The notes beneath the pieces are model-generated. The model was not told the origin of the DNA. It saw nothing but the letters and a program-made list of their open reading frames with translations, and searched no databases. This document shows, piece by piece, positions 5,705 to 58,455 of a stretch of 64,000 nucleotides of DNA; position 1 is the first letter of the stretch, and each line of letters begins with the position of its first letter. The DNA is taken from NCBI GenBank assembly GCA_029959665.1, contig JASCOI010000004.1, positions 1 through 64,000 of the forward strand, read 5' to 3'. This DNA comes from Microbacteriaceae bacterium PS02333 (lineage in GTDB: Bacteria; Actinomycetota; Actinomycetes; Actinomycetales; Microbacteriaceae). The position numbers and the translations under genes are program-made.

Positions 5705-5705
5705 G

Positions 5706-8304: not shown

Positions 8305-8351
8305 CACGCTCACAACGTGGACCTGCGACGACGCAGACCGAGAGGACAACG

Positions 8352-25663: not shown

Positions 25664-25782
25664 CGTGCCGGACCCTCGAACCGACGGGAACCGCGCTGTT
25701 CCGTGCACGCTCGGCGCTGAGAACTCACGCGCTTGTCGGGCCGTCTGCCGGGGCGTTCAGTGGGTGGGTCGCGCGGTCCTTG

Positions 25783-28429: not shown

Positions 28430-28736
28430 CGAGAGCCTCGCAACAACGCGATCGGCCCAGGCCGCCGAGACTATGACCGGCGTCTGGACCTGCCAGAGGC
28501 ACGACACTGACGCTTCGGAGCGTACGGGCCAGGCACGGAGGCGCTGTACCATACTGTCCGCTTCGCGGACCCGTGACCCGTGGATCAACAGACAAGCTGA
28601 AGTCCTAGGCCCCTCATGCCACGGAGGCAGACTGTGATTGCGAACCTCGTGACACTCCTCGTCGACTTGAATCGCCACTGACCTCGAAATCGTAGCTGTG
28701 CGCTGGAGGGTTCCTCTTGCAGTCGTGGAGCAATCG
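28430..28736. other. Intergenic region between the coiled-coil protein and the Vsr gene
   Basis: I see no supported gene. A long minus-strand frame continues upstream from the coiled-coil protein, but it lacks family similarity and crosses antisense into the Vsr gene. The region probably holds the promoter of the coiled-coil gene and the end of the DISARM transcript. No clear terminator hairpin was found. Confidence 0.5.
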
Positions 28737-29880: not shown

Positions 29881-29881
29881 C

Positions 29882-39674: not shown

Positions 39675-42600
39675 CGGCGGCCTCCAGCTTCTCGATGTCC
39701 CCGGGCGTAAGGGCGAACACGAGTGCAGCCACAAACACGTGAGCCTGTACATCGCGGTAGCGGCGTTCGATAGAGGCACGCTCGGCGAGCTGCTCCTCGT
39801 CGAGCATCGCGAGACGAGTGCGCACGCGAGCGAGATCCTGCTCGCGCTGCCGCTTTTCATCGGGGAACTGGAACAGCATTTCGTCGCCAGCACGATTGGC
39901 CTCCTCGGCGGCGTCGAGGGTGCTCCGCAGCGTGCCGCGGAAACGGTCAAAGATCTGATCGACTGCCACGAGGTCAGACTCGCGACGGGCATCCAGATTT
40001 GTCTCGACCTCGCGTCGCAGTCTGTCAGCGCGTCGGTCGACGGCTCCTGCAACGCGGGCGCGTATGCCCTCTTCGTAGGGCATACCCGAGTTCCAGTGCT
40101 CCACGATGCGATCGAGCGCGCCCGAGCCGGGCAGCGAGATGCGCAAGCCGTCGAGGGCGGTGACCAGCAGGTCCTCCGCCTTTTCGATGCCGAGCTCCTG
40201 GCGACGGTAGAGGCGCGTGCCCGCAAGGAAGACCTCCTCGTGCAGGCGCACGCCGCCCTCGCCGACGAGCACGAGCCTCGCCACACCAGCTGCGAAGGAT
40301 TGGTCGAGCCCGTCGACCACGACGGCGCTGATGCCGCGCACCTGATCGGTGCGCGTCCATACCTGGCCGCGGAGCTCGCGGGCCGCGCGCTGCACGAGCG
40401 GATGCCCAAGGTGGGCGTAGACGACGTCGGACTGCTGACGGGCGCGCCCCTCGTCGAAGGTGATGGGACGCTGGATGTCGCGGTGCAGTCGCATCTCCAG
40501 TCCGGACTGCTGCAGCGTCTGCTGCCATGAACGGGAAAGATTTCGTGGCACTTCGAAGACGCGAGCCTCCTGCCGAGGATCGGCGATTTCGATCAACTGC
40601 GGTTGCCCCGAAATTCGGAGTCCCTCCTCAATGACTCTCAAGAGATTGTCCTCGTGCAGGTGCATGCCGTCTCGCGAGTTCTCGAGGCGTTCGGCGAGTC
40701 GCGTGAGCTCACGACCCAAATCTCGCTCGCCCTGCAGAGCGGTGTTGATCACCTGCTCGCCACGGCCAAGCTTTGCGGCGCGCATCCGACCGGCGCCGAA
40801 CCCGAGTTCGCGCTGCAGGTTGGGAGCGATGATGTCAGCCGCTGGAACACCGTCGTGTTCAGAGTTCGAGATCTTGCTCGCCAAGCGGGCGAGGAGGTCG
40901 GTGTCCTGCGCGAACGGCGTCGAATTCGTGGTAGTTGCTCGCGGATACCAGATTAAGGGGGTCTCCTGCTGGCCGAACCGGTCGATCCGACCGATGCGTT
41001 GCTCAAGCCGATTCGGATTGAACGGGACGTCGAAACTGACCAGACGGTGGCAGTAATTTTGCAGATCGATACCTTCGCCCGCGGCGTCCGTCGCGAGCAG
41101 GATGCGAACCGGCTCCTCGGCCGGCGACGCAGTGAAGCGGGCGCGGATGTCCTCCCGAGTCTCGGCATCGGTCGAGCCGTCGATGATTTCGAGCCGATCG
41201 CCGCCGAGACCTTCGGAATCGAGCACATCGCGCAGCCACGCGAGCGTGCTGACGTACTCGGTGAAGACGACGATGCGCTCGTCGCCCCACCCACCATCAG
41301 GGAGGAGCAGCTCTCCGCGGATCAGTTCGAGCAATGCGGAGAGCTTGGAATCGGGGCGGCCTTGGTAGCGGTTACCCCAGGCGATGAGGGAGCGCAGATC
41401 CGCCTCGTCCTCGCTCGTGAGCGCCAATTGCAGCCGCTTTGTCGCGCGGAGCGCGTCGAGCTCGGGCTGCTCGAGGCGGCCCTCCTCCTCGTCTGAGGAT
41501 TCGTCGCCGAGCACATCGTCGTATTCGGGCAGTCGGGCATCACAGTCCCCGTGTGAAGCCAGGTGACCCTCGGCCGTCGACGCGAACGCTACCGGCGACG
41601 AAAAGAAGCGCTTCTTCAGGATGAGGGTTGCCAGATCGGAGGCCTGTTTGCTCTTCTCTTGCTTCACCGCGGCGTTACGGCGCCGCGTGAACGCGATTAG
41701 CCGGTCGTACGCCTCTGATTCGTCCGCCGCAGGATCGAAGCGGAGCTCGCGCACTTCCCGGAGCCGGAACCCGAGGTCGGGGAGATCCCGCTTCAACCGA
41801 CGCACCGCCACCTGCCGCAGTGCTCGCTCGTCGAGATCCGCTCCACGGGCGAAGCGCTGCGGGTCGATCATCTCGAGTAGCGCCGTGAACGACTCGGTAT
41901 AGCCGTTGTGCGGAGTCGCGCTCAGGAAGAGCCGATGCTCGCAGACTTCGGCGAGACGGCGCACCGCGATTGTGCGCTGGCTGTCGACCGCATAGCCGGG
42001 GCGGCCGGAGCCCGATCGGCTGGGCGTCGCCGGCGCTGCGTGATGCGCCTCGTCGACGACGAGCACGTCGAAGGCGCGCTGTGTCGCCGTTCTCGCATCC
42101 TTGATGCTCGAGTACACCTCTTCGAGCATTCGCTCGGCGCGTGGTTGCGGAAGCCATGACATGGAGACGATCACGCGCGGATACACGCGGAAAGGGTTGG
42201 CGTGCACGCCGAACTTGCGGCGGAACGTCTTCATCGTCTCGGAATTGACGATCTCGAACTGCAGACCGAACTTGTCGCTCAGTTCCTCTTGCCACTTGAT
42301 GACGAGACCCGCGGGGCAGATGATGATTACCGAACGGGCTCGGTGGCGCAGCAACAGCTCTTGTATGACCAGACCGGCCTCGATCGTCTTGCCGAGGCCA
42401 ACGTCGTCGGCGAGGAGCATGTTCGCGCGAGGGGAGTCGATCGCGCGGCGGAGCGGTTCGAGCTGATAAGCCTGAATGGAGACGGAGCTACGAAACGGGG
42501 CCTGCAACGTGCGCGGGTCGGCGCTCGTAAGGGCGCCCCAGCGCAGCGCATCGACGTACGCGGCGAAGGTCCTCGGCTCGTCGAACTGCTCGGAGCGGAT

Positions 42601-42867
42601 CGTATCGGGCAGCCCCTGCTCGCGCACCACGCTGCGACCGGGCTCAAGCTCCCAGAGAACCGTGAGCGCAAGGCCGTAGCGCTCCTCCTCAACAGACTGC
42701 ATCGTCACCGCGTGCTGCAGCTCGGCGGTGCCGTCGTCGGCGCTCGACCTCGGCAACGACTGTGCGACAACGTCGGTGACGATCCACCGTTCGCCGCGCA
42801 CGTTCACGAGCAGTCCGGGTTCCGGCACTTCCGGGACAGCGCGATCCGTCTCCGCGATCGATTCCAC
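39664..42867 (-). CDS. drmD: DISARM SNF2-like helicase DrmD
   Basis: The 1067-residue SF2/SNF2 protein has motif I ADDVGLGKTIEAGL near residues 153-166, PAGLVIKWQEEL, the DEAH box VLVVDEAHHAA near 270, SATPHNG, and the C-terminal helicase domain with VVFTEYVST, ATDAAGEGIDLQ and the motif VI region FNPNRLEQRIGRIDRFGQ. The C-terminal 250 residues are helical and charged. DrmD together with DrmMI defines class 1 DISARM. It is followed without a gap by DrmMI. It starts 61 bases after the cytosine methyltransferase stop, so a separate or shared promoter is possible. Confidence 0.9.
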   Translation of the reverse strand: MESIAETDRAVPEVPEPGLLVNVRGERWIVTDVVAQSLPRSSADDGTAELQHAVTMQSVEEERYGLALTVLWELEPGRSVVREQGLPDTIRSEQFDEPRTFAAYVDALRWGALTSADPRTLQAPFRSSVSIQAYQLEPLRRAIDSPRANMLLADDVGLGKTIEAGLVIQELLLRHRARSVIIICPAGLVIKWQEELSDKFGLQFEIVNSETMKTFRRKFGVHANPFRVYPRVIVSMSWLPQPRAERMLEEVYSSIKDARTATQRAFDVLVVDEAHHAAPATPSRSGSGRPGYAVDSQRTIAVRRLAEVCEHRLFLSATPHNGYTESFTALLEMIDPQRFARGADLDERALRQVAVRRLKRDLPDLGFRLREVRELRFDPAADESEAYDRLIAFTRRRNAAVKQEKSKQASDLATLILKKRFFSSPVAFASTAEGHLASHGDCDARLPEYDDVLGDESSDEEEGRLEQPELDALRATKRLQLALTSEDEADLRSLIAWGNRYQGRPDSKLSALLELIRGELLLPDGGWGDERIVVFTEYVSTLAWLRDVLDSEGLGGDRLEIIDGSTDAETREDIRARFTASPAEEPVRILLATDAAGEGIDLQNYCHRLVSFDVPFNPNRLEQRIGRIDRFGQQETPLIWYPRATTTNSTPFAQDTDLLARLASKISNSEHDGVPAADIIAPNLQRELGFGAGRMRAAKLGRGEQVINTALQGERDLGRELTRLAERLENSRDGMHLHEDNLLRVIEEGLRISGQPQLIEIADPRQEARVFEVPRNLSRSWQQTLQQSGLEMRLHRDIQRPITFDEGRARQQSDVVYAHLGHPLVQRAARELRGQVWTRTDQVRGISAVVVDGLDQSFAAGVARLVLVGEGGVRLHEEVFLAGTRLYRRQELGIEKAEDLLVTALDGLRISLPGSGALDRIVEHWNSGMPYEEGIRARVAGAVDRRADRLRREVETNLDARRESDLVAVDQIFDRFRGTLRSTLDAAEEANRAGDEMLFQFPDEKRQREQDLARVRTRLAMLDEEQLAERASIERRYRDVQAHVFVAALVFALTPGDIEKLEAAGGR

Positions 42868-42928
42868 TGGGCGTTCCTCTCCTCCGTCTGTGAGCAGCTC
42901 TTCAGTATCTCCCTAATGGTGAAGAAAA

Positions 42929-44167
42929 CTATGCGGACCGAGAACGCCTCAAAGCCTCTTCCGAGGCTTCCTCGCCCGGAACCTCGCACAGTTCCAGTAC
43001 TCGCTGCAGGATGGCGCTCCCCAGTTGTGGGGGTACTGCGTTCCCGATCATGGTGGCAAGGGCGGTGCGCGTCGGGCAACCTGAGAAATCGAAGTAGTCG
43101 GGGAACCCCTGGATGCGAGCCGCCTCGTGGGCCGTGAGCGCTCGGGGCAGATCCGGGTGCATGAAACGGCCCTGACCGATGCTGCCGAAGCCGCTCGTGA
43201 TGGTTTGGGCCGGCTGATTCCAATTCAGGCGGCCGTACATCGACTTGTAAGAATGCGTATCATTCTGGTGACACTTCGGCCGGCGGTCGTTCGGCAGGTC
43301 GTATTCGTTTTCCTGGAGCATCCACTCCATGCGCGCGAGATTATCGGCTTTCGCTTGCGGTGCGCGGTCGCGGAGGGTGCCATCATCAACGCCAAGCAGG
43401 TCGTAGATCGCCCAACGCAGGTCGTGACGATCCTCGGCATGCGCAAGGCTGTCGAAGATCGTCTCAGGATCGATGCTCTTTGCGCGCGTCGCCAGCATGA
43501 GGTGCCGGCGGCGGGTCTGCGCAGCACCGATCGTCTCGACGGCGACGACCTCGTGCGCCACGTTGTAGCCAAGTCCGCGCAGGTGGCGTTCTGCCCGCGT
43601 CACGACGCCCTCGCCATCATGCCGATCACGGAGCACCGCGGGCACGTTCTCGATCAGTACGATCTCGGGCTCGAGGATCTCGGCTGCCCGCGCCATTCGC
43701 AGGTATAACGCGTTCTTCATATCGACCCGACGAGTGTGATTGTTGAGGTTGCTGTGCCCTTGGCATGGCGGCCCCCCAGTGAGGACGGTCACTTCGCCGA
43801 CGTCCGCCTTCGTTCGACTCTCGACAAACGTGCTGGGTGCGCTCAAGTCGCCGTCGAAAAAGTCCTCGACGGGAGCAGTCTCGACGCGCTCGGCGAACGG
43901 ATAGTTCTCTCGGTAGACCTGCATCGCCAGCGCTTCGAAGTCGATTGCAAGCGGAATTTCGACCCGTCGCCCGCGTTTCGCTGCAGCCTGCGCCAACCCG
44001 AGCGTCAGCCCGCCACACCCGGCGAACAGATCCACGATCCGCACGGGCGGCCCATCGCCGAGCTCGAAGGCAGGCCGAACCCGCTCCCGTAACGGGTGTT
44101 CTTCGTTACGCGCGCCCGTCTCCACGGGTGCTAACTCTAGCTTGGAAGCTGTGTCGGTCCGGCGCAC
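42929..44167 (-). CDS. C5-cytosine DNA methyltransferase
   Basis: The protein of about 412 residues makes 5-methylcytosine in a specific site. Motif I is VDLFAGCGGLTLGL (about 43-57), motif IV TGGPPCQGHSN with catalytic Cys near 135, motif VI ENVPAV, motif VIII QTRRRH, and motifs IX-X with RALTAHEAARIQGFPDYF and MIGNAVPPQLGSAI. The target recognition region (about 250-330) is less GC-rich than its surroundings. The start is uncertain: GTG at 44167 lacks a ribosome site and is followed by rare CTA and TTA codons, so a GTG about 16 codons later may be used. It precedes the class 1 DISARM genes and probably pairs with the Vsr enzyme at the other end. The equivalent DrmMII belongs to class 2 DISARM. 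Confidence 0.9.
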   Translation of the reverse strand: MRRTDTASKLELAPVETGARNEEHPLRERVRPAFELGDGPPVRIVDLFAGCGGLTLGLAQAAAKRGRRVEIPLAIDFEALAMQVYRENYPFAERVETAPVEDFFDGDLSAPSTFVESRTKADVGEVTVLTGGPPCQGHSNLNNHTRRVDMKNALYLRMARAAEILEPEIVLIENVPAVLRDRHDGEGVVTRAERHLRGLGYNVAHEVVAVETIGAAQTRRRHLMLATRAKSIDPETIFDSLAHAEDRHDLRWAIYDLLGVDDGTLRDRAPQAKADNLARMEWMLQENEYDLPNDRRPKCHQNDTHSYKSMYGRLNWNQPAQTITSGFGSIGQGRFMHPDLPRALTAHEAARIQGFPDYFDFSGCPTRTALATMIGNAVPPQLGSAILQRVLELCEVPGEEASEEALRRSRSA

Positions 44168-46481: not shown

Positions 46482-47117
46482 CTACCGCCGGTACAACGTC
46501 GCCGGCTTCCCCGGACCCTCCGCAGCCTTCGCGTCCGTCGCCGTCAACAACGGCACCATCGCCCGCCGGAACGAGTCCGGCAGCAGCCGCTCACCGAGGA
46601 CGGCCTCGTGCAGCGCCCGGAGCGCCGACATGGTGAACGGCGACGGCAGGAGCCCGTGCGGGTCCGGCGCCCCACGGTGATCGGCACGGAGCCGATCGAC
46701 CGCGAACCCGAGGATGTCGTCGTGCCCGTGCACCATGCCCGTCGCCTCGCCGATCGGCACGAGTCGCGCGTCGTCCCCGAGGTCGAGTGACGCCGCAGGA
46801 ACGACGTCGAGGTGCGCCACGGACAGCACCCACCCGCGGTCGTCCCGCGAGGGCTCGTCGAACACGTGCAACTGCCGCGGCGCGAGCCCGGTCACGCTCG
46901 CTTTGTCGCGAAGCGATCGGAGCACCGCGTCCGCGAGCCGCTCACCCTCGTGCACGAACGTCCCCGGCAATCGCCAGTCGCCGTCCGTCTGGTCCCGGAC
47001 CTGCACGACCGAGAGCGCCCCGCCGACCGGAACGGTGAGCACAGCGGTGTCGACCGCGACGGAGGGTCGCGGGTAGTCGGACAGGCGCTTGCCGTTCGCG
47101 TCGCGGTACTCGGTCAC
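46482..47117 (-). CDS. NrtR-like regulator (degenerate Nudix plus winged helix)
   Basis: The 211-residue protein has an N-terminal Nudix-like domain (about 18-140, WRLPGTFVHEGERLADAVLRSLRDKAS) and a C-terminal winged helix (about 150-205: TMSALRALHEAVLGERLLPDSFRRAM). The Nudix box lacks the REUxEE glutamates (it reads LRDKAS), so hydrolysis is unlikely. This combination is the NrtR type: a repressor that senses ADP-ribose through the dead Nudix domain and controls NAD metabolism. It is divergent from an ADP-ribosylglycohydrolase, with palindromes carrying TTTACGC arms in between. That makes autoregulation and control of the neighbour likely. Confidence 0.82.
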   Translation of the reverse strand: MTEYRDANGKRLSDYPRPSVAVDTAVLTVPVGGALSVVQVRDQTDGDWRLPGTFVHEGERLADAVLRSLRDKASVTGLAPRQLHVFDEPSRDDRGWVLSVAHLDVVPAASLDLGDDARLVPIGEATGMVHGHDDILGFAVDRLRADHRGAPDPHGLLPSPFTMSALRALHEAVLGERLLPDSFRRAMVPLLTATDAKAAEGPGKPATLYRR

Positions 47118-47200: not shown

Positions 47201-48145
47201 ATGACGAACACCACCGACCGAGCCATCGGAGCAGTCCTCGGATCCGCGGCGGGCGACGCGCTCGGCGCCGGCTACGAGTTCCAGCCGCCCGCCCCGGAGT
47301 CCACGCCCATCCGCATGAAGGGCGGTGGCGCGTTCAACTGGGCACCGGGGGAGTGGACTGACGACACGAGCATGGCCGTCCCGATCCTGCGGACCGCCGC
47401 TCGCGGCGGCTCGTTCGCGGACGACTCTGCGCTCGACGGGCTCGTCGCGGCCTGGGCGGATTGGGCGCGGACCGCGCCGGACGTCGGCATCCAGACGCGC
47501 AGCGTCTTGGCCGGTCTGGAGGCTCGGACCGCGTCCGCCTCGCGGGCGTCGGCCCGACAGGTCCACGACCAGAGCGGTCGTTCCGCTGGCAACGGATCGC
47601 TGATGCGGACGGCGCCGTTGGTGCTCGCGTACCTGGACCCGGCGGAAGACACGGATCGTCGGCTCGCCAACGCTGCCCGGGCGGTCAGTGACCTGACCCA
47701 CTACGAGGCCGATGCCGGCGATGCATGCGTACTCTGGTGCGTCGCCATCCGACACGCGGTGCTGACGGGGTCCCTCGACGTTCGGCGTGGACTCGACCAG
47801 CTGCCGACGGACCGCCGACGGGTGTGGGCTGAGCGACTGTCCGCTGCCGAGGCCGGGCAGCCCGTCGACTTCACCGCGACGAACGGCTGGGTCGTGTCCG
47901 CCCTGCACGCTGCGTACGCCGCGGTGCTCCGGAGCGACTCGCTCGAGAGCGCCCTCGTCGCCGCGGTCCGATCGGGCAACGACACCGACACCGTGGCAGC
48001 GATCGCCGGAGGACTCGCTGGGGCGCTGTACGGCGCGTCCGCGCTGCCGGGTGACTGGCGGGAGCTGCTGCACGGCTGGCCCGGGCTCCGCGTAGACGAC
48101 CTCGTCGCACTGAGCTCGCAGGCGGTCCGCGTCCGAGCGGCCTGA
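47201..48145 (+). CDS. ADP-ribosylglycohydrolase family protein
   Basis: The 314-residue all-alpha protein has the family motifs: GAVLGSAAGDALGAGYEF at the start, the metal-binding WTDDTSMA (about residues 50-57), and the second metal site SGNDTDTVAAIAGGLAGALYG near 262-282. It removes ADP-ribose from proteins, nucleic acids or ADP-ribosyl compounds, using two Mg ions. ATG follows TGGAGGGGCC. The NrtR-like regulator on the other strand suggests expression responds to ADP-ribose or NAD status. Confidence 0.9.
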   Translation: MTNTTDRAIGAVLGSAAGDALGAGYEFQPPAPESTPIRMKGGGAFNWAPGEWTDDTSMAVPILRTAARGGSFADDSALDGLVAAWADWARTAPDVGIQTRSVLAGLEARTASASRASARQVHDQSGRSAGNGSLMRTAPLVLAYLDPAEDTDRRLANAARAVSDLTHYEADAGDACVLWCVAIRHAVLTGSLDVRRGLDQLPTDRRRVWAERLSAAEAGQPVDFTATNGWVVSALHAAYAAVLRSDSLESALVAAVRSGNDTDTVAAIAGGLAGALYGASALPGDWRELLHGWPGLRVDDLVALSSQAVRVRAA

Positions 48146-49676: not shown

Positions 49677-50171
49677 TCATCCCTGTTCGGCAACAGACGC
49701 ACACATCGACTCGACGGTGACGGTTGACGTCCGAGGGTTCGCAGTCACCGCAACCATCGGCTTGCCGTCCTCGTCTGCAATCGCCTGATACAGCGTTCCG
49801 TACTTCCCGCCATCGGCTGACCGCACGGCGACGGTTCGATCGTGTTCGCGCAGCATGTTCGCGACGGACTCGATGTACGCCTTCGGGTCACTCGGCGCTG
49901 AGCCCATGGCGTTCCAATGGTCCCGTCTTCCACCATGCGGATCGTCATCGGCCGTGCACTCCGCGTGCGCCGGCTCAGCGTTGCGGTCATCTTCTGGCCA
50001 CTCGGATCCGTCGACCTCGAACACCTGGTGCAACACCTGCTCGGCGGCCTGTCTGCTCTGCTTCTCGTCCACGGCGATCCCACCTCGCGGAGGTGCCGAG
50101 CACCCCGACATCGTCATGGTCAGTGCGACGGCGACGCCTAAGGCGGCAACCATCGATCTTCGCTGGATCAT
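49677..50171 (-). CDS. Lipoprotein paralogue 6 (family C) of the hydrolase locus
   Basis: This 164-residue lipoprotein has a signal peptide and lipobox MSGC (C24 lipidated). The mature domain has FEVDGSEWPEDDRNAEPAHAEC, then DDPHGG, WNAMGSAPSDPKAYIESVANMLRE, YGTLYQ and a C-terminal VTVESMCA. It shares this pattern with paralogue 4 (50694), so the two form family C of the array. The internal and C-terminal cysteines may form a disulfide. It is the last gene of the minus-strand operon headed by the ESX-like protein and the DUF1023 hydrolase, 34 bases after paralogue 5. Function is unknown; immunity to the hydrolase is an inference. Confidence 0.75.
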   Translation of the reverse strand: MIQRRSMVAALGVAVALTMTMSGCSAPPRGGIAVDEKQSRQAAEQVLHQVFEVDGSEWPEDDRNAEPAHAECTADDDPHGGRRDHWNAMGSAPSDPKAYIESVANMLREHDRTVAVRSADGGKYGTLYQAIADEDGKPMVAVTANPRTSTVTVESMCASVAEQG

Positions 50172-50205
50172 GCATTCACCACGAGTCGAGGGTCCCGAAA
50201 TGACG

Positions 50206-50697
50206 TCATTGCTCGTAGTCGGCAACGTTCCCGGTGCCACAGGACGACTCGACTTGGATCGATGTTCGGTGTTCGGAGGCGTTGAACGAGATGGTGCGAA
50301 CCGGGTCGCCTTCGGCCGCAACGGTGTACAGCGTGAGGCCGTCCTTGCGTTTGCCGTCCCGATGAGACAGCGACAGGCCGCTGGCTTCCCACTCGGCGCC
50401 GACCTTCTTCACGAGCTCGCCAGGCTGCTCAACCCCTGACGCGAGCTGGTTCCACGAGAAGGCAACCCCGGCGCCGCCCTCGCTGGTGCCGCACTCGAAC
50501 GCGATCGGTGAGCCACCGTCGCTGACCCAGTCAAGACCTGTCAGGTCCATCGTCGACTGCACGAAGTCACGCATCTGCCTGCGTGCCTGATCTGCGTCCA
50601 CGGTGTTCCCCCGACCGTCAGGTTGAGCGCATCCGGCGAGAGTGGCCATCGCTCCGATCAGAAGCACTGCAATGACGGCCCGGAAGCGACGACTCAA
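50206..50697 (-). CDS. Lipoprotein paralogue 5 (family A), TTG start
   Basis: This 163-residue lipoprotein has lipobox LAGC (C23). Family A features shared with paralogue 1 (52444) are CAQ at the lipid site, VDADQARRQMRDFVQSTMDL, FSWNQLASGV, DGLTLYTV, EGDPVRTIS and ASEHRTSIQVESSCGTG. The start must be TTG: AGGAG lies seven bases upstream, and TTGA overlaps the stop of paralogue 4. Paralogue 1 uses the same TTGA junction with the hydrolase gene. Cys in FECGTSE and the C-terminal SSCGTG may pair. Confidence 0.75.
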   Translation of the reverse strand: MSRRFRAVIAVLLIGAMATLAGCAQPDGRGNTVDADQARRQMRDFVQSTMDLTGLDWVSDGGSPIAFECGTSEGGAGVAFSWNQLASGVEQPGELVKKVGAEWEASGLSLSHRDGKRKDGLTLYTVAAEGDPVRTISFNASEHRTSIQVESSCGTGNVADYEQ

Positions 50698-51191
50698 TGC
50701 TCGACTCCTAAGTCGTTCCGGTCGTGATCCGCGAGATCGCCGGCTGCGCACACCGAATCGACGGTGAGAGAAGAGGTCTGCTGGTTCGCGGTCGCTGATA
50801 CCGCCGGGCGGTCCTCGTCCCTGGTGTGTACCTGGTAAAGAACGCCGTACCTGCCAAAGTCCGTGCTTCGGGTGGACACCGAGTAGGCCTCTTCCCGAAG
50901 TTTGGCAGCGACCGCGTTGATCCAAGCCTCGGGATCGGGCGGAGGGGTGCCGCGAGAGTTCCAGTGGAATTGCACCCCACCATGCGGGTCTCCGCTCTGG
51001 CTGCACTCGGTCGGAGCCGGGATCGCAGTGCGAGCAGCCGAAGGCCACTCGGAACCCGGAACGTCGAGCACCAGTTCGCGTGCGGTCGCTGCGGCCTGGC
51101 GATTTCGTTCGACGTCAGCAGTGTCTGCTTCCGTTGCTGAGCAGCCAGCGATCAGTGTGGTGGCGGTGATGAGGGTGGCTGTGAACGGCAT
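50694..51191 (-). CDS. Lipoprotein paralogue 4 (family C)
   Basis: This 165-residue lipoprotein has lipobox IAGC (C17). It resembles paralogue 6: LVLDVPGSEWPSAARTAIPAPTEC, then GDPHGG, HWNSRGTPPPDPEAWINAVAAKLREE, YGVLYQVHTRDEDRP and LTVDSVCAAG. Its stop overlaps the TTG start of paralogue 5. Identity to paralogue 6 is moderate, so the duplication is not recent. Role as for the other members: unknown, surface-exposed. Confidence 0.78.
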   Translation of the reverse strand: MPFTATLITATTLIAGCSATEADTADVERNRQAAATARELVLDVPGSEWPSAARTAIPAPTECSQSGDPHGGVQFHWNSRGTPPPDPEAWINAVAAKLREEAYSVSTRSTDFGRYGVLYQVHTRDEDRPAVSATANQQTSSLTVDSVCAAGDLADHDRNDLGVEH

Positions 51192-51286
51192 CCTCAAGGC
51201 CCGGGTGAGTGTCGCCTTCGTGTCACAGCCTCTGGCCCGGACGTGACCCGCCAGGTCAGTCTTCGCTCGCGTGTCGACCACCGGAA

Positions 51287-51787
51287 TCAACCGCCCTCGT
51301 TGACGAAGTCGTCGACGATGCCCGCACCGCAAAGCGACTGCACGTTGATGGACATCCTGTCCGTGATGGCGTTGAACTGGATCGAGTCGACTTCATGCCC
51401 CATTGAGTCGACCCGGTGCAATGTCTCGCCGTCTGCCCGCTTGACGCTTTGTGTCGTCGTCGGGAGGCCATGGTCCCGCCACGCGCGGTCGACCCGTAGC
51501 ATCACGGCCTTCGGATCGCTCACGCCGTCGGCGTCCTGATCCCACGAAAACCAGACTCCCTCGTCACCCTCCGGAGTGGTGCAGGGGTCCGCTGCAGGAC
51601 CGTTGCTCGTGCTCGTCCAATGTCCTCCAGCGGCTTCCATCGTGACGCGCACCAACGACTGCATCTGCTCGGAAGCCCGTTCGGCGTCCACAGGCGGTGG
51701 CCCCTTCGTTGAGGAGCATGCGGCGATGGAGCATGCGACCGCCACGATGAGCGCGGCGGTCGCTGTGCCGCGGATGAAGGAAGTCAT
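51287..51787 (-). CDS. Lipoprotein paralogue 3 (family B)
   Basis: This 166-residue lipoprotein has lipobox IAAC (C24). Family B features shared with paralogue 2 are SEQMQSLVRVTMEAAGGHWTS, SNGPAADPCTTPEG, WFSWDQDADGV, VDRAWRDHGLPTTTQSVKR, LHRV, and the tail INVQSLCGAGIVDDF. The strong similarity to its neighbour paralogue 2 suggests these two came from the most recent tandem duplication in the array. Confidence 0.78.
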   Translation of the reverse strand: MTSFIRGTATAALIVAVACSIAACSSTKGPPPVDAERASEQMQSLVRVTMEAAGGHWTSTSNGPAADPCTTPEGDEGVWFSWDQDADGVSDPKAVMLRVDRAWRDHGLPTTTQSVKRADGETLHRVDSMGHEVDSIQFNAITDRMSINVQSLCGAGIVDDFVNEGG

Positions 51788-51841
51788 CGGGTCAGGAGGT
51801 TTCCGGTCGTGGCTTGAGTCGTGCTGCCGAGGGATTCGAAT

Positions 51842-52315
51842 TCACGTGAAGTCGTCGACCTTGCCTTCACCACAGAGTGACTGGACCTCGATCGTCACAC
51901 GACTCGTCGTGGCCGCGAACAGGATCGAGTCGACATCTTTCCCCGTCGAGCCGACTCGGTGCAGGATCTTGCCGTCTCCCCGCTTGACGCTCCGCGTGTT
52001 GGTCCTCAGCCCCCCATCGCGCCAGGCTTGATCCACCCGCTCCATGACCGCTTGAGGATCGTCAACTCCAGCAGCGGTCTGATCCCACGAGAACGTGACC
52101 CCGTCCTTACCGGCGGGAGTGCTACAGGGATCGGGAGCGGGGCCATTGCTTGCACTCGTCCACTCCCCGCCCGCGACCTTCATAGTGTCGCGTACCAAGC
52201 TCTGCATCCGTTCGGAAGCCTGTTTCGCGTTCAATGAATCTCCCGGAGTCGAAGTGCATGCCGTCGCGGTGACGGCCAGCGTCAGGATCAGCGCCGCAGA
52301 GCCGATGGACCGCAT
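51842..52315 (-). CDS. Lipoprotein paralogue 2 (family B)
   Basis: This 157-residue lipoprotein has a signal peptide ending TATAC (C20). It shares SERMQSLVRDTMKVAGGEWTS, SNGPAPDPCSTPAG, FSWDQTAAGV, VDQAWRDGGLRTNTRSVKR and the tail IEVQSLCGEGKVDDF with paralogue 3. The chosen ATG is the one directly before the hydrophobic signal; the frame is open 41 codons further upstream without signal-peptide character. A 128-base gap separates it from paralogue 1, long enough for an internal promoter. Confidence 0.75.
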   Translation of the reverse strand: MRSIGSAALILTLAVTATACTSTPGDSLNAKQASERMQSLVRDTMKVAGGEWTSASNGPAPDPCSTPAGKDGVTFSWDQTAAGVDDPQAVMERVDQAWRDGGLRTNTRSVKRGDGKILHRVGSTGKDVDSILFAATTSRVTIEVQSLCGEGKVDDFT

Positions 52316-52443
52316 CGTGGAGCCGTCCGAGTTCGGGCACGTGTCACCGTTGGCAAATAGATCGTGCCTGGTGACATCGAGCATGCCTGGGTCCCGCCAT
52401 GCGCCAGCATGCGGCGTTCTCCATCGAGACCGCTGCACCAGCC

Positions 52444-52956
52444 CTATCCGTTGTTGTCACGATCGACGTAGTCCAAGACATCTCCGGTCCCGCACAGGGA
52501 CTCCACCTGGATCGAGGTCCGGTGTTCGCTCGCGTTGATCGAGATGGATCGAACGGGGTCGCCTTCTCCGACCACCGTGTAGAGGGTGAGCCCATCCCCT
52601 CGCTGACCCTGCCGTTCCGAGTTCGCGAGACCCTGCGCTTCCCAGTACTTCTCGATCCGACGGACCAACTTCTCCGGGTCCGCGACGCCTGAGGTCTGCT
52701 GGTTCCAGGAGAACGAAACACCAGAGTCTCCGTTGTCCAGACCACAGCTGTCCGGAGAGGGAGCGCCGCCCACGCTGGTCCATTCACCGCCGACTTCAGA
52801 CATCGTGTCCCGCACGAATCGTTGCATCGCAGAACGAGCTTCATCAGCGTTCATCACGTCTCCATCTCCATGCGACTGGGCGCAGCCGGTCACCGCCAGC
52901 GCTGTGGCAAGTGTCATCGCTCCTGAAATCAGCAGGGCTCTGCGTCTGATCGTCAA
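52444..52956 (-). CDS. Lipoprotein paralogue 1 (family A), TTG start
   Basis: This 170-residue lipoprotein has an Arg-rich start (TIRRRALL) and lipobox VTGC (C25) followed by AQ, as in paralogue 5. Other shared parts are MNADEARSAMQRFVRDTM, VSFSWNQQTSGV, RIEKYWEAQGL, DGLTLYTVVGEGDPVRSISI and ASEHRTSIQVESLCGTGDV. TTG is the only start near the hydrophobic segment, and it overlaps the hydrolase stop as TTGA. It is the lipoprotein translationally coupled to the hydrolase, so it is the best candidate for the cognate partner. Confidence 0.78.
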   Translation of the reverse strand: MTIRRRALLISGAMTLATALAVTGCAQSHGDGDVMNADEARSAMQRFVRDTMSEVGGEWTSVGGAPSPDSCGLDNGDSGVSFSWNQQTSGVADPEKLVRRIEKYWEAQGLANSERQGQRGDGLTLYTVVGEGDPVRSISINASEHRTSIQVESLCGTGDVLDYVDRDNNG

Positions 52957-54638
52957 TTCGGGAAGCTCTTCGTCGTGGCACGGGCGATGTTGTCGAGGGA
53001 TTCGGTGTTCATGTCAAAGTACCCGTACTCGTCCGGATGGCGCGGGCCATGGATGAGGGGATCGTGTGTCGTGACTCCGTGCATCTGCGGGTCGCCAGGT
53101 TGTCCTGCTGTGGGGAGGTACGTCGCGCCGAAGGACGGGACCGCTGGATCGGTGCGGGTCATGCTGAATGCCTGCCCGATCGAGGACCACTGATCGCCCT
53201 TACCGCCGATGAAGGGCAGCACTCGCGGCGCTTGCGCCGCATAGACCACGCCCGCGTGGATGTCTTGCGCGTCGGCGATCCGACGCTCGATACCCGCTGA
53301 GCCTGCCATCACGAAGGAATCCACACCGAGGTCGTGATCGGCCAGTGTCAGGGACGACGTCGTACTGCCGTAGGAATGCGCGACGACGTTGAGCGATCCC
53401 TTGCCGTCACCTCGGGTGGCGTTGAACCCGGCGAGGTCGTCAGCCAGGCGGACCGAGCCCGTCCGAGCAAGGTCTCCGTGAAGCACCGTAGTAGGTGTCG
53501 GGGTCGCGTAGTTGATCCAGGCCACGACAGCCGTCGTGTCGTCCGCCCAGTCGCCTTGTTTCGTGCGCAGGTTGTAGGCGGCCCGCTCCACGACGGTCAT
53601 GTTCCGGGTGTCTGAGTTCATGCCCGGGACCACATAGGTCACGTTCTCCGCTGTGTCCAGGTCACCCATCGCGACTGCGGCGAGGGGCGGGTGCTCGGGA
53701 TACAAGCTGATCAGCGACGCGTCGTCGTACTTCTTCAAAGCAGCTTCAATGTTGCTGTAAGCGGCCGCATCAGCACCTCCTGCTCTCCGGAGCTCAGTCT
53801 TGAGCGTTGTCCGATTCGCCTTGTCTCGCGCCCAGTACGCGACACCGTTGAGGTTGCCGATCAACGACGGGATGCCGCTTATCAGGGCCTGCTGCACGGC
53901 GCTGTGCTTCGCCGAGGTTCCCTTGCCGTCCGCACCACCGAGCGAGTTCCACCAGTCAGCGATGACCTGCGGGTCCTTAATCTGACCGAGCCGATCGGCC
54001 ACGGCCTTGTCGAGTCCGATCCGGGGGAGCGCATCTGCCGGTTGACTCGCGAGCCACGCGAGGAACGCGGTGTCGCTCATGCCATTGAGCGTCGCGGCCG
54101 ACGGAGGCGGCGTGCCGAGGACTGCGTCGCCGTGGAGCTTCGCGACGACGGCTGCATCGGCGGACTGACGGCGGGCGACGAGGTCCGTCCACGACCGGTC
54201 GAGTGCGAGCTTCGTAGTCTGGTACGCAACCCCGAGCGCCGATGCCGTGACGACCTTCGTCATCGAATCCTCGTCGTCCGCGGAGTTCAACCGATCGAGC
54301 GCGCGGGCGTTGGAGGCGATGTCCTGGTCGTTCCGGAGCTGTGCGGCGCGGACGGTCCGTGCGTCCGTCTGGATCTGGTCGAGCTTCGCTGCGTACTCCG
54401 ACAGCGCGACGGCGACGTTTTCGATCCGGCTCGACACCCGACCGACCTGCGTCTGCAGCTCCTGAGCCTTGGAGGTGAATGCCGTCCGCGAGGCGGCTTC
54501 CCACACGCTGCTGGTCGCCGAAGACGAAGCCGAGCTGATCGAGTCCCCAGCCGTGTCGACGGAGATCGACCGCTGTTCGAGTACCTGGGCAAGCCGCCGG
54601 ATCGAGTCGACGTCGCCGGCCATCGGGTCGACGCTCAT
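52953..54638 (-). CDS. DUF1023 alpha/beta hydrolase with ESX-like N-terminus
   Basis: The 561-residue protein has two parts. Residues 1-140 are helical and look like a WXG100/ESX secretion partner domain, although the turn reads VWEAASRTAF, with Ala in place of the WXG glycine. Residues about 320-540 form a DUF1023-type alpha/beta hydrolase with nucleophile elbow VVAHSYGST (S422) and a late region PLIHGPRHPDEYG that could supply the catalytic His. Similar proteins are esterases or lipases associated with type VII secretion. No Sec signal peptide is present, so export would need an ESX-type system, which is not encoded in this window. It overlaps the small ESX-like gene (ATGA) and lipoprotein 1 (TTGA). 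Substrate is unknown. Confidence 0.8.
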   Translation of the reverse strand: MSVDPMAGDVDSIRRLAQVLEQRSISVDTAGDSISSASSSATSSVWEAASRTAFTSKAQELQTQVGRVSSRIENVAVALSEYAAKLDQIQTDARTVRAAQLRNDQDIASNARALDRLNSADDEDSMTKVVTASALGVAYQTTKLALDRSWTDLVARRQSADAAVVAKLHGDAVLGTPPPSAATLNGMSDTAFLAWLASQPADALPRIGLDKAVADRLGQIKDPQVIADWWNSLGGADGKGTSAKHSAVQQALISGIPSLIGNLNGVAYWARDKANRTTLKTELRRAGGADAAAYSNIEAALKKYDDASLISLYPEHPPLAAVAMGDLDTAENVTYVVPGMNSDTRNMTVVERAAYNLRTKQGDWADDTTAVVAWINYATPTPTTVLHGDLARTGSVRLADDLAGFNATRGDGKGSLNVVAHSYGSTTSSLTLADHDLGVDSFVMAGSAGIERRIADAQDIHAGVVYAAQAPRVLPFIGGKGDQWSSIGQAFSMTRTDPAVPSFGATYLPTAGQPGDPQMHGVTTHDPLIHGPRHPDEYGYFDMNTESLDNIARATTKSFPN

Positions 54639-54916
54639 CCGCGCGCCTTCTTCGCGAGGTCCTCGTCGGCGCGGGTGAAGCTCGTGACCGTTGCTCGAAC
54701 GCCAGAAGCGAGTGCAACGGCGGACGACGCCACCGACTGCACCATCGCCGACTGGATCCGGACCGCGTCCTCGATCGCGGCTGTGACGGTCGGACTGCCG
54801 GTGTCCGCGCCCCCGGCTCGTGCGCTCAGCGTCACCGCGGACAGATCGTCGCCGCTCTTGCTGACCTTGTCCGCGATGTGACCGACGGCCCCCTTGTCGA
54901 ACACCAGTTTTGCCAC
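54635..54916 (-). CDS. Small helical ESX-like protein
   Basis: The 93-residue protein has two long predicted helices, a Gly/Thr-rich turn (GGADTGSPTVTAA) and a Lys/Arg tail. That is the size and shape of WXG100 proteins, but no WXG is present. It starts with AKLVFDKGAVGHIADKVSKSGDDLS. It is the first gene of the unit and overlaps the hydrolase by four bases, so it may be its secretion partner or chaperone. The divergent gene on the plus strand (55000) leaves an 83-base promoter region. I cannot assign a specific family. Confidence 0.7.
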   Translation of the reverse strand: MAKLVFDKGAVGHIADKVSKSGDDLSAVTLSARAGGADTGSPTVTAAIEDAVRIQSAMVQSVASSAVALASGVRATVTSFTRADEDLAKKARG

Positions 54917-54999
54917 GAAATCGCCTTCCCCCGAAGTGGTACGTCCGGCAGCATATCAGCCACGGTCCCGGTGTCGGGCGCCGCTGTTACGGTGCAGCC

Positions 55000-57900
55000 A
55001 TGCAGATCACGCCCGAGGGCCACGCGCTCCTCAGCCCGAGCGACCTCACCACGTGGGCGTCGTGCGAGTGGGCGTTCCTCCGCAGACTCGACGCCAAGCT
55101 CGGCCGTGGGGAGCCCCTGCCCGAAGCACACGACGACATGCTCGACCGGACGGCGAAGCTCGGGGACAAGCACGAGCTCGACTACCTCGAGATCCTCAAG
55201 GCCACCCACGACGTCGTGGAGTTCGACCGCCCGGCACCGCCGGAGTACAGCGCAGCAGCCGAAGCGGCACTGCAGACCATGCGCACGGGTGCGGACGTCC
55301 TCTACCAGCCGACGTTCCACCGACCTCCGACCGCGGACGAGGCGGGCTTCATCGGCTTCGCGGACTTCATCATCCGCAACGACCGCGGCGAGTACGAGGT
55401 GTACGACACGAAGCTCGCCCGGCACGCCAAGATCAGCGCCCTCCTGCAGCTCGCCGCCTATGCCGAGCAGATGCGCGCGCACGACATCCCGACGGGCGAG
55501 CAGGTGCACCTGGTCCTCGGCGACCGCACCACGACCACGCACGACCTCGCCGACATCACGCCGGTGTACCGCACGCAGCGCGCCGAGCTCACACGGGTGA
55601 TCGCCGAACGGATCGCAGCGGACGAACCCCTGCGGTGGGGCGATCCGCGGTACAGCAGCTGCGGTCGCTGCTCCGTCTGCCAGACCCAGGTGGAGCAGCA
55701 CCGCGACCTGGTCCTCGTCGCCGGGATGCGCCTCGACCAGCGGACGAAGCTGATCCGGCAGGGGGTGCTGACGATCGACGACCTGGCGGTCCGCACCGCA
55801 CCGGTGCCCGGCATGTCGAGCACGACGCAAGGTCGCCTGGTCCGTCAGGCGAGCCTCCAGGTCGAGTCGGAGCGGACGGCGACGAAGAAGCCGGCATGGG
55901 AGCTGGTAGACGCAAGAGCCCTCGACGCGATCCCCGTACCGGACGCGGGCGACGTGTTCTTCGACTTCGAGGGGGACCCGCTCCACACCGAGGACGGCGT
56001 GCACTGGGGACTCGACTACCTCTTCGGCCTGGTCGACGACCGCGCGGAGTTCACGGCATTCTGGGCGCACACGATCCGAGACGAACGACAGGCCCTGGTG
56101 GACTTCCTCGCGTTCATCGAGGAGCGTCGGCGGGAGCACCCCGGCATGCACGTCTACCACTACGCCGCCTACGAGCGGACGCACCTGCTGTCCCTCGCCG
56201 CGCGGCACGGTGTCGGCGAGGAAGCCGTCGACGACCTGCTGCGCGCGGGCGTGCTCGTCGACCTGTACCCGATCGTCCGCAAGGCGCTCGTCGTCGGCAG
56301 CCACAGCTACTCGATCAAGAAGCTCGAGCCGCTGTACATGGGCGAGGACCTGCGCCTGAGCGACGTGACGAACGCCGCGGACAGCATCACGGCCTACGTC
56401 GACGCGATCGAGGAACTCCGCACTGGCGACGCCGCCGAGGGCCAGCGGATGCTCGACCAGGTCGCGGACTACAACGCCTACGACTGCCGCTCGACCCTGC
56501 GCCTGCGCGACTGGCTGCTGTCGCTCCGGCCGCCGTCCACGGACGCGCCGGCCGAACTCGACCTCCCGTCGATCCCCGTCGAGCGCGAACCGAACCCCGT
56601 GTACGTCGCCCTGGCGTCCGAGCTCGAGCACGTCGAGGCGCTCGACCGCACCCCTGACCAGACCGCCCTGGCGCTCGCCGCGGCCGCGATCGACTACCAC
56701 CGCCGCGAGGCCAAGACCTTCTGGCAGGACCATTTCGACCGGCTCCGCAACCCGGTCGACGAGTGGGCGGACACCCGCGACGTCCTCGTCGTCGAGCGTG
56801 CGTCCGTGGAGCGCGACTGGGACACGCTGCCGCGTGCCCGCTCGCAGTCCCGAGAACTCCGGTTGTCGGGGACGCTCGCGCCCGGCAGTCGGCTCCGGCC
56901 TGGAGGCTCGCCCCACCTCGTCTACGACGACCCGCCTCCGCCATCGGTCGGTTCACCGGGCCCCGGGTCGAAGGGAGCGACGGACCGCGCCGTGATCCTG
57001 GACGTCCACGACAACGGCGAAGCGACAGAAGTCGTCGTACTCGAACGCCTGCCCGTCGGTGGGGAGCCGCACCACGAGTTCCCGGTCGCGCTCGCACCGT
57101 CGTCGCCGCCGCGCGCGAAGCCCCAGCCCGAGGCGATCGCCGAGTGGGGTGCCGAGGTCCTCGACGCCCTGCCGGAGATGCTGCCGGACCCGGCGTTCGA
57201 TCTGCTCCGACGGGTGCCGCCGCGCGGTGCGATCTCGCCCGTCGTCGGGGATGACACCGTCACCGCGGTGGTCTCGACGCTGCTCGGGCTCGACCGGTCG
57301 TACCTGGCGATCCAGGGCCCTCCCGGAACGGGCAAGACCTACGTCGGGTCGAACGTCGTCGCGCGACTCGTCCGTGAGCACGGCTGGCGCGTGGGCGTCG
57401 TCGGACAGTCGCACGCGACGAGCGAGAACTTCCTGTCCTCGGTCGTGCGAGCGGGCGTGCCGGCCGACCGCGTCGTGAAGCAGCCGAAGGCCGGTGCCGA
57501 GGCCGACGAGATCGAGGCGGCGGCGTGGACCCCCGTGAAGAACGGTGCCGCGATCGCCGCGTTCCTGGAGTCGTGCGAGCAGAGCGGCACCGGGGGAGTC
57601 GTCGGCGGCACCGCGTGGACGTTCGCGAACGAGTCGACGATCGCGCGGCGCTCACTCGACCTGCTCGTCGTCGACGAAGCCGGACAGTTCTCGCTCGCCC
57701 CCACGATCGCGTCCTCGATCGCCGCGACCCGGCTGCTCCTGCTCGGTGATCCGCAGCAGCTGCCGCAGGTCTCGCAGGGATCGCACCCCGAGCCCGTCGA
57801 CGAGTCGGCACTCGGGTGGCTGGCGGACGGCGAGCACGTGCTGCCTGCCGAGTTCGGGTACTTCCTCGCTCGGACCCGGCGGATGGAGCCGGCGCTGACG

Positions 57901-58455
57901 TCGGCCGTGTCGGGGCTGTCCTACAACGGGCAGCTCACGTCGATGGCGACGGGGCGGTACCTCGACGGCATCGACGCCGGTGTGCACCCGGTGCCGGTCG
58001 TACACGCGGGCAACACCACGTCGTCGCTCGAGGAAGCTGCACGCGTCGTGTCCCTGGCGAAGGACGTCGTCGGCCGGTCGTGGACTGACGGCGACACCGT
58101 CCGGACCCTGTCCGACGAGGACGTCATCGTCGTCGCGCCCTACAACGCGCAGGGCGCAGTGATCCGCCACGAGCTCGACCGAGCTGGGCTCACGGGCACG
58201 CAGGTCGGGACGGTCGACATGTTCCAGGGGCGGGAAGCCGTCGTGTCGATCGTGTCGCTCGCTGCGTCGAGCGCGGCCGACATCCCACGGGGGCTCGACT
58301 TCCTGCTGATGCCGAACCGCCTGAACGTGGCGCTCTCGCGTGCGAAGTGGGCGGCGTACCTCGTGCATTCGCCCGCGCTGACGACGGCCCTACCGCCCTC
58401 GATCCCCGGCCTGTCCCTGCTGTCCCGCTTCATCGAGCTGGTCGCCCCGCGCTGA
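55000..58455 (+). CDS. TM0106-type RecB nuclease fused to SF1B helicase
   Basis: The 1151-residue protein combines a Cas4/RecB-like nuclease, an RNase H-like domain and a Dna2/Upf1-type helicase. The nuclease has an N-terminal Cys (SCEWAF, C22) and CGRCSVC near residues 221-227, suggesting an iron-sulphur cluster. GFADFII and YEVYDTKLA supply the PD-(D/E)XK acids and lysine. DVFFDFEGDPL near 317 opens the RNase H-like domain. Helicase motifs are Walker A GPPGTGKTYVG (about 773), LLVVDEAGQFS, GDPQQLPQVSQG, QVGTVDMFQGRE and LNVALSRAKW. It likely processes DNA or RNA ends in repair. ATG at 55000 matches the family start, with no leader. Confidence 0.9.
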   Translation: MQITPEGHALLSPSDLTTWASCEWAFLRRLDAKLGRGEPLPEAHDDMLDRTAKLGDKHELDYLEILKATHDVVEFDRPAPPEYSAAAEAALQTMRTGADVLYQPTFHRPPTADEAGFIGFADFIIRNDRGEYEVYDTKLARHAKISALLQLAAYAEQMRAHDIPTGEQVHLVLGDRTTTTHDLADITPVYRTQRAELTRVIAERIAADEPLRWGDPRYSSCGRCSVCQTQVEQHRDLVLVAGMRLDQRTKLIRQGVLTIDDLAVRTAPVPGMSSTTQGRLVRQASLQVESERTATKKPAWELVDARALDAIPVPDAGDVFFDFEGDPLHTEDGVHWGLDYLFGLVDDRAEFTAFWAHTIRDERQALVDFLAFIEERRREHPGMHVYHYAAYERTHLLSLAARHGVGEEAVDDLLRAGVLVDLYPIVRKALVVGSHSYSIKKLEPLYMGEDLRLSDVTNAADSITAYVDAIEELRTGDAAEGQRMLDQVADYNAYDCRSTLRLRDWLLSLRPPSTDAPAELDLPSIPVEREPNPVYVALASELEHVEALDRTPDQTALALAAAAIDYHRREAKTFWQDHFDRLRNPVDEWADTRDVLVVERASVERDWDTLPRARSQSRELRLSGTLAPGSRLRPGGSPHLVYDDPPPPSVGSPGPGSKGATDRAVILDVHDNGEATEVVVLERLPVGGEPHHEFPVALAPSSPPRAKPQPEAIAEWGAEVLDALPEMLPDPAFDLLRRVPPRGAISPVVGDDTVTAVVSTLLGLDRSYLAIQGPPGTGKTYVGSNVVARLVREHGWRVGVVGQSHATSENFLSSVVRAGVPADRVVKQPKAGAEADEIEAAAWTPVKNGAAIAAFLESCEQSGTGGVVGGTAWTFANESTIARRSLDLLVVDEAGQFSLAPTIASSIAATRLLLLGDPQQLPQVSQGSHPEPVDESALGWLADGEHVLPAEFGYFLARTRRMEPALTSAVSGLSYNGQLTSMATGRYLDGIDAGVHPVPVVHAGNTTSSLEEAARVVSLAKDVVGRSWTDGDTVRTLSDEDVIVVAPYNAQGAVIRHELDRAGLTGTQVGTVDMFQGREAVVSIVSLAASSAADIPRGLDFLLMPNRLNVALSRAKWAAYLVHSPALTTALPPSIPGLSLLSRFIELVAPR

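Follow-up and report, generated by a model that had tools for sequence, protein, structure and literature searches.

The window analysed here, a 64,000-nucleotide stretch of DNA from Microbacteriaceae bacterium PS02333, carries on its minus strand, from position 54916 down to 49677, eight head-to-tail genes encoding a small ESX-like protein, a hydrolase and six lipoproteins. The genome is probably that of a Curtobacterium, as suggested by the 87% identical hydrolase of Curtobacterium sp. GC_Cur_3 (locus L095). The first gene (54635..54916) starts with GTG and encodes a protein of 93 amino acids with an F-x-x-x-D motif close to its C-terminus. The second (52953..54638) encodes a protein of 561 amino acids with a helical, ESX-like N-terminal region and a C-terminal alpha/beta hydrolase. 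They are followed by the genes of lipoproteins A1 (52444..52956, 170 amino acids), B1 (51842..52315, 157), B2 (51287..51787, 166), C1 (50694..51191, about 165, with an ATG start at 51191), A2 (50206..50697, 163) and C2 (49677..50171, 164). Overlaps of a few bases join the ESX-like stop to the hydrolase start, the hydrolase stop to the TTG start of A1, and the stop of C1 to the TTG start of A2, the fourth and fifth lipoproteins. The initial annotation of this DNA had described the same genes at the same coordinates, with the lipoproteins in the order A-B-B-C-A-C, and both were borne out, the order being that of transcription.

Residues 318–471 of the hydrolase matched the Abhydrolase_8 family (PF06259; E value, 2e-22; 80.1 bits against a cut-off of 20.5), placing the protein within that family, of which we take DUF1023 to be the former name. 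The nucleophile Ser422, in the motif H-S-Y-G, was invariant in all 95 aligned hydrolases (54 from Curtobacterium, 21 core Abhydrolase_8 hydrolases and 20 from the LppA loci described below). Asp482 was present in 83–100% of each of these three groups and, with His525, is a candidate member of a catalytic triad with Ser422. The protein is probably a lipase or esterase. The N-terminal third was predicted to be helical at moderate confidence, within an otherwise poor model; it scored below the cut-off of the WXG100 model (E value, 0.013; 15.7 bits against 44.85), and the Pfam domain Hydro_N_hd gave an E value of only 0.73. The small partner matched no family above the cut-off (DUF6507; E value, 0.015). 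The label ESX-like thus rests on size, position and helical character, and on homologues that have a WXG100 gene and a type VII ATPase as neighbours. In L035, L037 and L095, homologues of the small partner (83–84% identity) likewise precede the hydrolase.

BLASTP comparison of the six lipoproteins was significant for every pair (E values, 2e-07 to 6e-68), with identities of 52–55% between the A copies, 62% between the B copies, 44–46% between the C copies, 35–43% between A and B, and 20–30% between C and either A or B. The three families proposed in the initial annotation therefore stand as groups A, B and C, but as subgroups of a single family, and three unrelated families are ruled out by these matches. 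The lipobox cysteine, an internal cysteine and a C-terminal cysteine were invariant in all six proteins, as had been claimed, and were the only invariant columns among 57 diverse members of the family (58 were chosen, five of those aligned being from the window, and one truncated row was dropped). The two cysteines outside the lipobox probably form a disulphide. Against Pfam and NCBIfam, none of the six lipoproteins gave a match above the cut-off, and DUF576 (Lpl) was absent from their Pfam matches at E values up to 1.

Genomes were searched with the window hydrolase and with a profile built from its six lipoprotein neighbours. Matches to the hydrolase were found in 38 of the 59 genomes searched, that of the window included, comprising all 36 of the genus and two of the 23 others, and the lipoprotein profile matched 32 of the 59, all within the genus. 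In the Curtobacterium regions, which were hand-picked from the match lists rather than drawn at random, lipoproteins were assigned to a hydrolase when they lay on the same strand with no more than 700 bases between matched domains. By this rule, 50 of 51 full-length hydrolases of the window kind had one to six lipoproteins directly downstream, compared with none of 21 core Abhydrolase_8 hydrolases, a difference that rules out chance adjacency. The core controls were two recurrent classes of match, with frames of about 475 and about 625 codons, and the seven scanned against Pfam were all PF06259. The rule left one full-length hydrolase (L064) without a lipoprotein; there, a lipoprotein lies some 520 bases beyond the hydrolase frame on its downstream side, too far for the chain. 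The remaining 13 of the 85 hydrolase open reading frames (ORFs) counted had a shorter frame or domain match, and 12 of these also had lipoproteins. The number of lipoproteins per hydrolase was one (23 loci), two (8), three (8), four (6), five (1) or six (4).

The reverse count gave 181 lipoprotein ORFs in the Curtobacterium regions, a few of which are pieces of split genes; 138 were in hydrolase chains and 43 lay outside, including lone genes and small clusters. Truncated or split hydrolases with their lipoproteins retained were found at seven loci (L055, L057, L062, L070, L080, L085 and L093). Further lipoproteins of the family adjoin the main array on the opposite strand in L036, L044, L046, L051, L052 and L091. 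Another 20 regions were kept outside the main counts. A hydrolase with lipoproteins was found in L247, L250, L252 and L253 and weakly in L255, and a hydrolase without them in L248, L249, L251, L254, L257, L258, L259, L262, L263, L264 and L265. By profile score and frame length, L257–L259 and L262–L264 are core-like, and L248, L249, L251, L254 and L265 were assigned neither to the core nor to the window kind. L256 is a fragment, and L260, L261 and L266 had no hydrolase match.

The association extended beyond the genus. A wider lipoprotein profile matched 67 of 249 sampled genomes of the bacterial family, that of the window included, in 36 of 85 genera. Outside the genus but within the bacterial family, a hydrolase lay beside the lipoprotein in 36 of 40 regions (19 of the 20 highest-ranking regions, each from a separate genome, and 17 of 20 chosen by hand), and a peculiarity of the window is thereby ruled out. 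In these regions and in the LppA-family regions below, a hydrolase match at any position in the region was enough for the count, and the coordinates place the hydrolase beside the lipoprotein. The initial annotation had named lipoproteins occurring mostly without the hydrolase as evidence against its proposal; the reverse was found, both in Curtobacterium and elsewhere in the family.

The chromosomal site of the locus was compared in six genomes, which represent different species rather than strains of one species. Both flanks are common to the window, L095, L037, L051 and L080, and one flank only is found in L035. The divergent gene on one side (54994..58455, plus strand), which marks the site and lies outside the system, is 86–88% identical at the same site in L051, L037, L095 and L080 and was not found in the L035 region. 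Two genes on the opposite side (47201–48145, plus strand, and 46482–47117, minus strand), also outside the system, are 75–89% identical in L080, L095, L051, L037 and L035. Between these flanks, the window holds its hydrolase with A B B C A C; L095 holds an 87% identical hydrolase with A B B; L035 and L037 hold a 74% identical hydrolase with B B C A C D; L051 holds a 37% identical hydrolase with six downstream lipoproteins, two of which are B; and L080 holds a truncated ESX-like gene and a hydrolase remnant, with two B lipoproteins retained. Constancy of copy number, which the initial annotation had suggested would count against a toxin-immunity role, was thus not found: numbers ranged from one to six across loci, and those beside intact hydrolases at this single site were 6, 3, 6, 6 and 6 between species, in differing order. 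As a side observation on composition, the G + C content is 61–67% across the 20 kb of window positions 24001–44000, compared with 67–74% elsewhere in the window except for 63–64% at 50001–54000; the first of these segments is possibly acquired DNA.

Synonymous divergence (dS) of the flanks was 0.41–0.52 between the window and L095, L037 and L051, and 0.12–0.19 among the latter three (0.17 for L095 and L051). In the comparison of L095 with L051, the B lipoproteins had flank-like dS values of 0.08 and 0.20, whereas the hydrolase domains were just 47% identical, which indicates that the toxin allele was replaced while the B lipoproteins were kept. All four genomes with a window-type hydrolase carry subgroup A, and the two that lack such a hydrolase do not. 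The dS of the A lipoprotein between the window and L095 was 0.47, roughly like that of the hydrolase (0.34). Because subgroup A tracks the window-type hydrolase and diverges about as the hydrolase does, A1 is the top candidate and probably the cognate immunity protein, with the others probably accessory, although six genomes are a small sample. The partner genes at this site are adjacent to the putative toxin gene, variable, and uncoupled from it in some genomes. Such turnover of toxin and lipoproteins at one site appears to be the behaviour of a toxin-immunity locus.

The connection to type VII secretion was provided by a second locus in the genome of the window (L005, contig C55), where an ATPase, a WXG100 protein, an ESX-like protein, a hydrolase and three lipoproteins are encoded in this order. 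The ATPase (1510 amino acids) is related to EssC/EccC (TIGR03928; E value, 2e-160, below the equivalog cut-off), and the WXG100 protein matched PF06013 (E value, 7e-14). The three lipoproteins were missed by the six-member profile; the first iteration found two of them (E values, 3e-07 and 5e-07, before inclusion), and the third was found at an E value of 2e-09 after these had been included in the profile. The same gene order recurs in three relatives (L118, L119 and L120), so that homologues of the window set repeatedly stand beside a type VII ATPase and a WXG100 gene. Two further type VII ATPase loci of the same kind are present in the genome of the window (C289 and C19). In addition, the hydrolases of two LppA loci (L168 and L172) matched Hydro_N_hd (E values, 3e-84 and 1e-55). 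The window hydrolase would thus be a type VII substrate by context rather than by a curated domain.

Some side observations concern these secretion loci. The catalytic part of the L005 hydrolase (7633–9384) has no Pfam match; the protein, which contains G-H-S-W-G, was found by the window hydrolase and an iterated profile and possibly represents a toxin type of its own. In L122, also from the genus, a type VII ATPase gene is directly followed by two lipoproteins of the family and then a WXG100 gene (1987–8131 and 12457–13275), and no Abhydrolase_8 hydrolase was found there; these lipoproteins are possibly immunity proteins kept beside a secretion gene, or they may counter a different toxin encoded close by. 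Frames of about 450–625 codons in L129 (15858–17675, in the genome of the window), L131, L260, L261 and L266 share the helical N-terminal region of window-type hydrolases and lie near a WXG100-like gene, with a type VII ATPase also near in L129, L131 and L266. They had no match to the hydrolase profile, and their regions had none to the lipoprotein profile; they are probably other substrates sharing the targeting region.

The fold of the lipoproteins was approached with a confident model of mature A1, built from nine sequences (A1, the remaining five copies of the window and three of L095), with a mean predicted local distance difference test score (pLDDT) of 87.6. The sole Foldseek match with an E value below 0.001 was 4mjg, a DUF4853 protein of Actinomyces odontolyticus (E value, 2.7e-04). 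When the Foldseek list was reranked with VIA-align 2, 4mjg was again best (Z 10.9; root-mean-square deviation, 3.2; 126 aligned residues), followed by 2v7s, the LppA of Mycobacterium tuberculosis (Z 10.0; root-mean-square deviation, 4.1; 130 aligned), with the next row at Z 6.9. Profile–profile comparison with hhalign against the LppA family (PF16708) was supportive without being conclusive (E value, 3e-05; probability, 73). PF16708 gave no match to the six lipoproteins at E values up to 1, nor any in the genome of the window. By model and profile, the window lipoproteins are probable remote relatives of LppA rather than members of its family by cut-off. The likeness to DUF4853 is one of fold only, since P0003 fell below the cut-off of PF16145 (E value, 0.015; 15.8 bits against 34.8); a DUF4853 search of the class found none of 296 genomes above the cut-off. 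When a profile of the 57 lipoproteins was compared with PDB sequences, 4mjg appeared only at an E value of 0.047, behind a de novo design (0.034), and LppA was not listed.

The LppA family itself was found beside the same kind of hydrolase. PF16708 was above its cut-off in 17 of 394 genomes of the class, and 19 of 20 LppA-family regions hold a hydrolase of the window kind adjoining the lipoprotein, 18 of them directly upstream on the same strand. The order of hydrolase and lipoprotein is reversed in L185, no hydrolase was found in L173, and an FtsK/SpoIIIE-type ATPase adjoins the pair in L168. One LppA-family protein from a hydrolase-paired locus (L144, from L176) is closely related to the LppA of known structure (E value, 3e-54); another (L140), searched singly, did not find that LppA. 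Since LppA-family loci share the hydrolase neighbour, the pairing of lipoprotein and hydrolase extends beyond Curtobacterium and its bacterial family. These homologous sets within type VII operons, one of them in the genome of the window itself, and the pairing with the LppA family go beyond what the initial annotation had claimed. The LppA family likewise includes arrays: three lipoproteins stand in tandem in L167, and L169 has two tandem hydrolase loci, the one with a pair of lipoproteins and the other with a single lipoprotein.

Co-variation of the two partners was examined at 54 loci. The identity of the hydrolase domains correlated with that of the first lipoprotein, with a Mantel rho of 0.88 at the 23 single-lipoprotein loci and 0.81 at the 31 multi-lipoprotein loci, and with that of the last lipoprotein at 0.67 at the latter. 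Six pairs of loci break the correlation, with lipoproteins 73–93% identical beside hydrolases only 31–44% identical.

The system was also compared with known type VII toxins. The initial annotation had likened the locus to staphylococcal lipase toxins, and the likeness holds at the level of arrangement. TslA of Staphylococcus aureus is a type VII-secreted phospholipase A countered by the DUF576/Lpl immunity lipoprotein TilA (PMC10730906). Both systems share a lipolytic enzyme (predicted here), small helical partners, lipoprotein genes by the toxin-domain end of the toxin gene, a variable number of non-identical lipoproteins, and lipoprotein clusters without a toxin (PMC10730906). They differ in that TslA is reversed, with a C-terminal targeting domain, an immunity gene 5′ of the toxin and two small partner genes (PMC10730906), whereas here the helical region is N-terminal and the hydrolase C-terminal, the lipoproteins lie 3′ and there is one small partner. 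The domain order and gene order of the window are usual for type VII toxins, unlike those of TslA/TilA. With an Abhydrolase_8 enzyme (a predicted hydrolase) and a lipoprotein model like LppA/DUF4853, the locus does not belong to the TslA/TilA group. The suggestion of an unrelated actinobacterial version agrees with these results, as the modelled fold makes the lipoproteins look like an unrelated family.

EsaD/EsaG, TspA/TsaI and TelC/TipC likewise combine a type VII toxin with several non-identical immunity paralogues of varying number, but they belong to the type VIIb systems (T7SSb) of Bacillota and have different toxins; recombination among paralogues has been reported for esaG and tipC (PMC9484751), whereas turnover of whole toxin alleles was seen here. 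LppA (PF16708; 2v7s) shares with the window lipoproteins the lipid anchor, the predicted fold and the adjoining Abhydrolase_8-type hydrolase, but its sequence is too distant for PF16708 to be detected in the genome of the window, and it is mostly single-copy apart from the three-gene tandem in L167. A survey of polymorphic toxins from 2012 proposed that alpha/beta hydrolases (Tox-ABhydrolase-1 and -3) might act as toxin domains against lipids, and it gave Imm65 as the one lipoprotein among the immunity proteins of its collection (PMC3482391). Neither DUF1023 nor LppA was found in the first 300,000 characters of its text (PMC3482391). Our searches of open-licence papers turned up no account, for actinobacteria, of a type VII hydrolase toxin whose immunity proteins are lipoproteins.

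Overall, these results make it likely that the locus is a polymorphic toxin-immunity island consisting of a type VII hydrolase toxin and immunity lipoproteins, a reading in which toxicity, secretion, target, binding and protection are inferred. The initial proposal of a hydrolase toxin with a protective lipoprotein array is supported in substance by the association across genomes, the type VII operons and the turnover at the site. Among its parts, export of the hydrolase by a type VII system is very likely, considering the operons and the LXG and TslA systems, and we hold with good confidence that the lipoproteins act as immunity proteins, given the lipobox, gene order and genetics. Antibacterial action appears rather likely, and a phospholipid target has an even chance. 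In such a system, the helical N-terminus and the small ESX-like protein would pair to form a targeting signal for the type VII ATPase. The exported hydrolase would reach the envelope of a neighbouring bacterium and, as its fold and active site suggest, act there on a lipid or another ester. Lipoproteins tethered to the outer side of the membrane would bind the enzyme and block it before it acts. A1 would be the cognate blocker, and B, C and A2 may be immunity proteins retained from earlier toxins or gained against the variants of rivals.

Several observations weigh against this interpretation. The window hydrolase is not adjacent to any secretion locus, and the hydrolase set was present in only four of the 11 fetched loci with a closely related type VII ATPase (L005, L118–L120 and L122–L128). 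Of 27 small partner ORFs counted (four of 31 were dropped as overlong frames or truncated), only 15 have an F/YxxxD/E motif within their last 22 residues. Histidine occupies the column of His525 in 54 of 54 Curtobacterium sequences, but in this alignment neither the core nor the LppA-locus group has it there, and the AlphaFold model of the hydrolase was poor (mean pLDDT, 42.8, from two sequences) and was left out of the fold searches. Errors of sequencing or assembly could account for some of the broken hydrolases, and the single lipoprotein at 23 of 51 loci would be expected of any obligate partner. The correlation of identities has a p value of 0.002, the lowest that 500 permutations can give, and common ancestry of adjacent genes, rather than co-adaptation, may account for it in whole or in part. 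Finally, the ratio of non-synonymous to synonymous divergence (dN/dS) was 0.09–0.57 in 13 gene pairs (11 lipoprotein and two hydrolase), with none above 1; such values show that the lipoproteins are maintained, with no positive or diversifying selection visible at the level of whole genes.

The strongest alternative is that the lipoproteins are accessory factors, such as a foldase, an activator, or a lipid-presenting or anchoring subunit, of a hydrolase that performs housekeeping or nutritional hydrolysis of surface lipids. The tight physical pairing, often one-to-one as at the 23 loci above and in most LppA-family regions, is consistent with this view, as is a weak resemblance of the A1 model to START-like, lipid-binding domains (Z about 5.5), although that may be just a common arrangement. 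Against it stand the up to six divergent copies per enzyme, and the copies within the four six-copy arrays are 17–66% identical. Lipoproteins also persist beside wrecked hydrolases, 43 of the 181 are outside any hydrolase chain, and the hydrolase was replaced at the site while lipoproteins stayed. We consider this alternative unlikely. Actinobacterial type VII effectors are best known from host interactions, so the hydrolase might instead be aimed at a eukaryotic host or at microbes generally, with lipoproteins that merely shield the membrane of the producer and extra copies that represent variants in gene dose or expression. Some members of the genus Curtobacterium are plant pathogens (PMC8830320). 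The allelic turnover at one site and the lipoproteins without an intact hydrolase point rather to a contest among kin, and the copies are divergent and not duplicates, so that a host-directed role seems still less probable. A third alternative, in which the lipoproteins serve as phage decoys or as surface antigens that vary, with the hydrolase adjacent only secondarily, is very improbable: antigenic variation has been suggested for lppA and lppB on the basis of their recombination and diversifying selection (PMC4770551), but the pairing with one type of hydrolase recurs in several actinobacterial families and is absent from the core hydrolases.

The toxin-immunity reading also bears on the mycobacterial proteins. 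The gene next by number to those of LppA and LppB (Rv2543 and Rv2544) in M. tuberculosis is Rv2542, which we presume to encode an Abhydrolase_8 protein. The genes lppA and lppB have been described as hotspots of recombination and diversifying selection with a suggested role in antigenic variation (PMC4770551) and as positively selected (PMC11056549), and Rv2542 is one of the genes listed as bearing frameshift scars of independent origin (PMC8339072). Tentatively, and with somewhat more doubt than belief, the Curtobacterium arrays and mycobacterial LppA may be seen as one actinobacterial system, in which an Abhydrolase_8 toxin exported by type VII secretion is matched with an immunity lipoprotein of the LppA fold. 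LppA and LppB would then be immunity proteins against the neighbouring Rv2542 hydrolase, and actinobacterial type VII secretion would serve contests between bacteria as it does in Bacillota.

Antibacterial type VII toxins have been worked out in Bacillota. If the toxin-immunity interpretation is true, it would provide a testable function for a large, unexplained family of lipoproteins with a probable relative of known structure and puzzling variation, and a single chromosomal site would offer natural combinations of toxin and immunity genes by which cognate immunity could be separated from accessory immunity.

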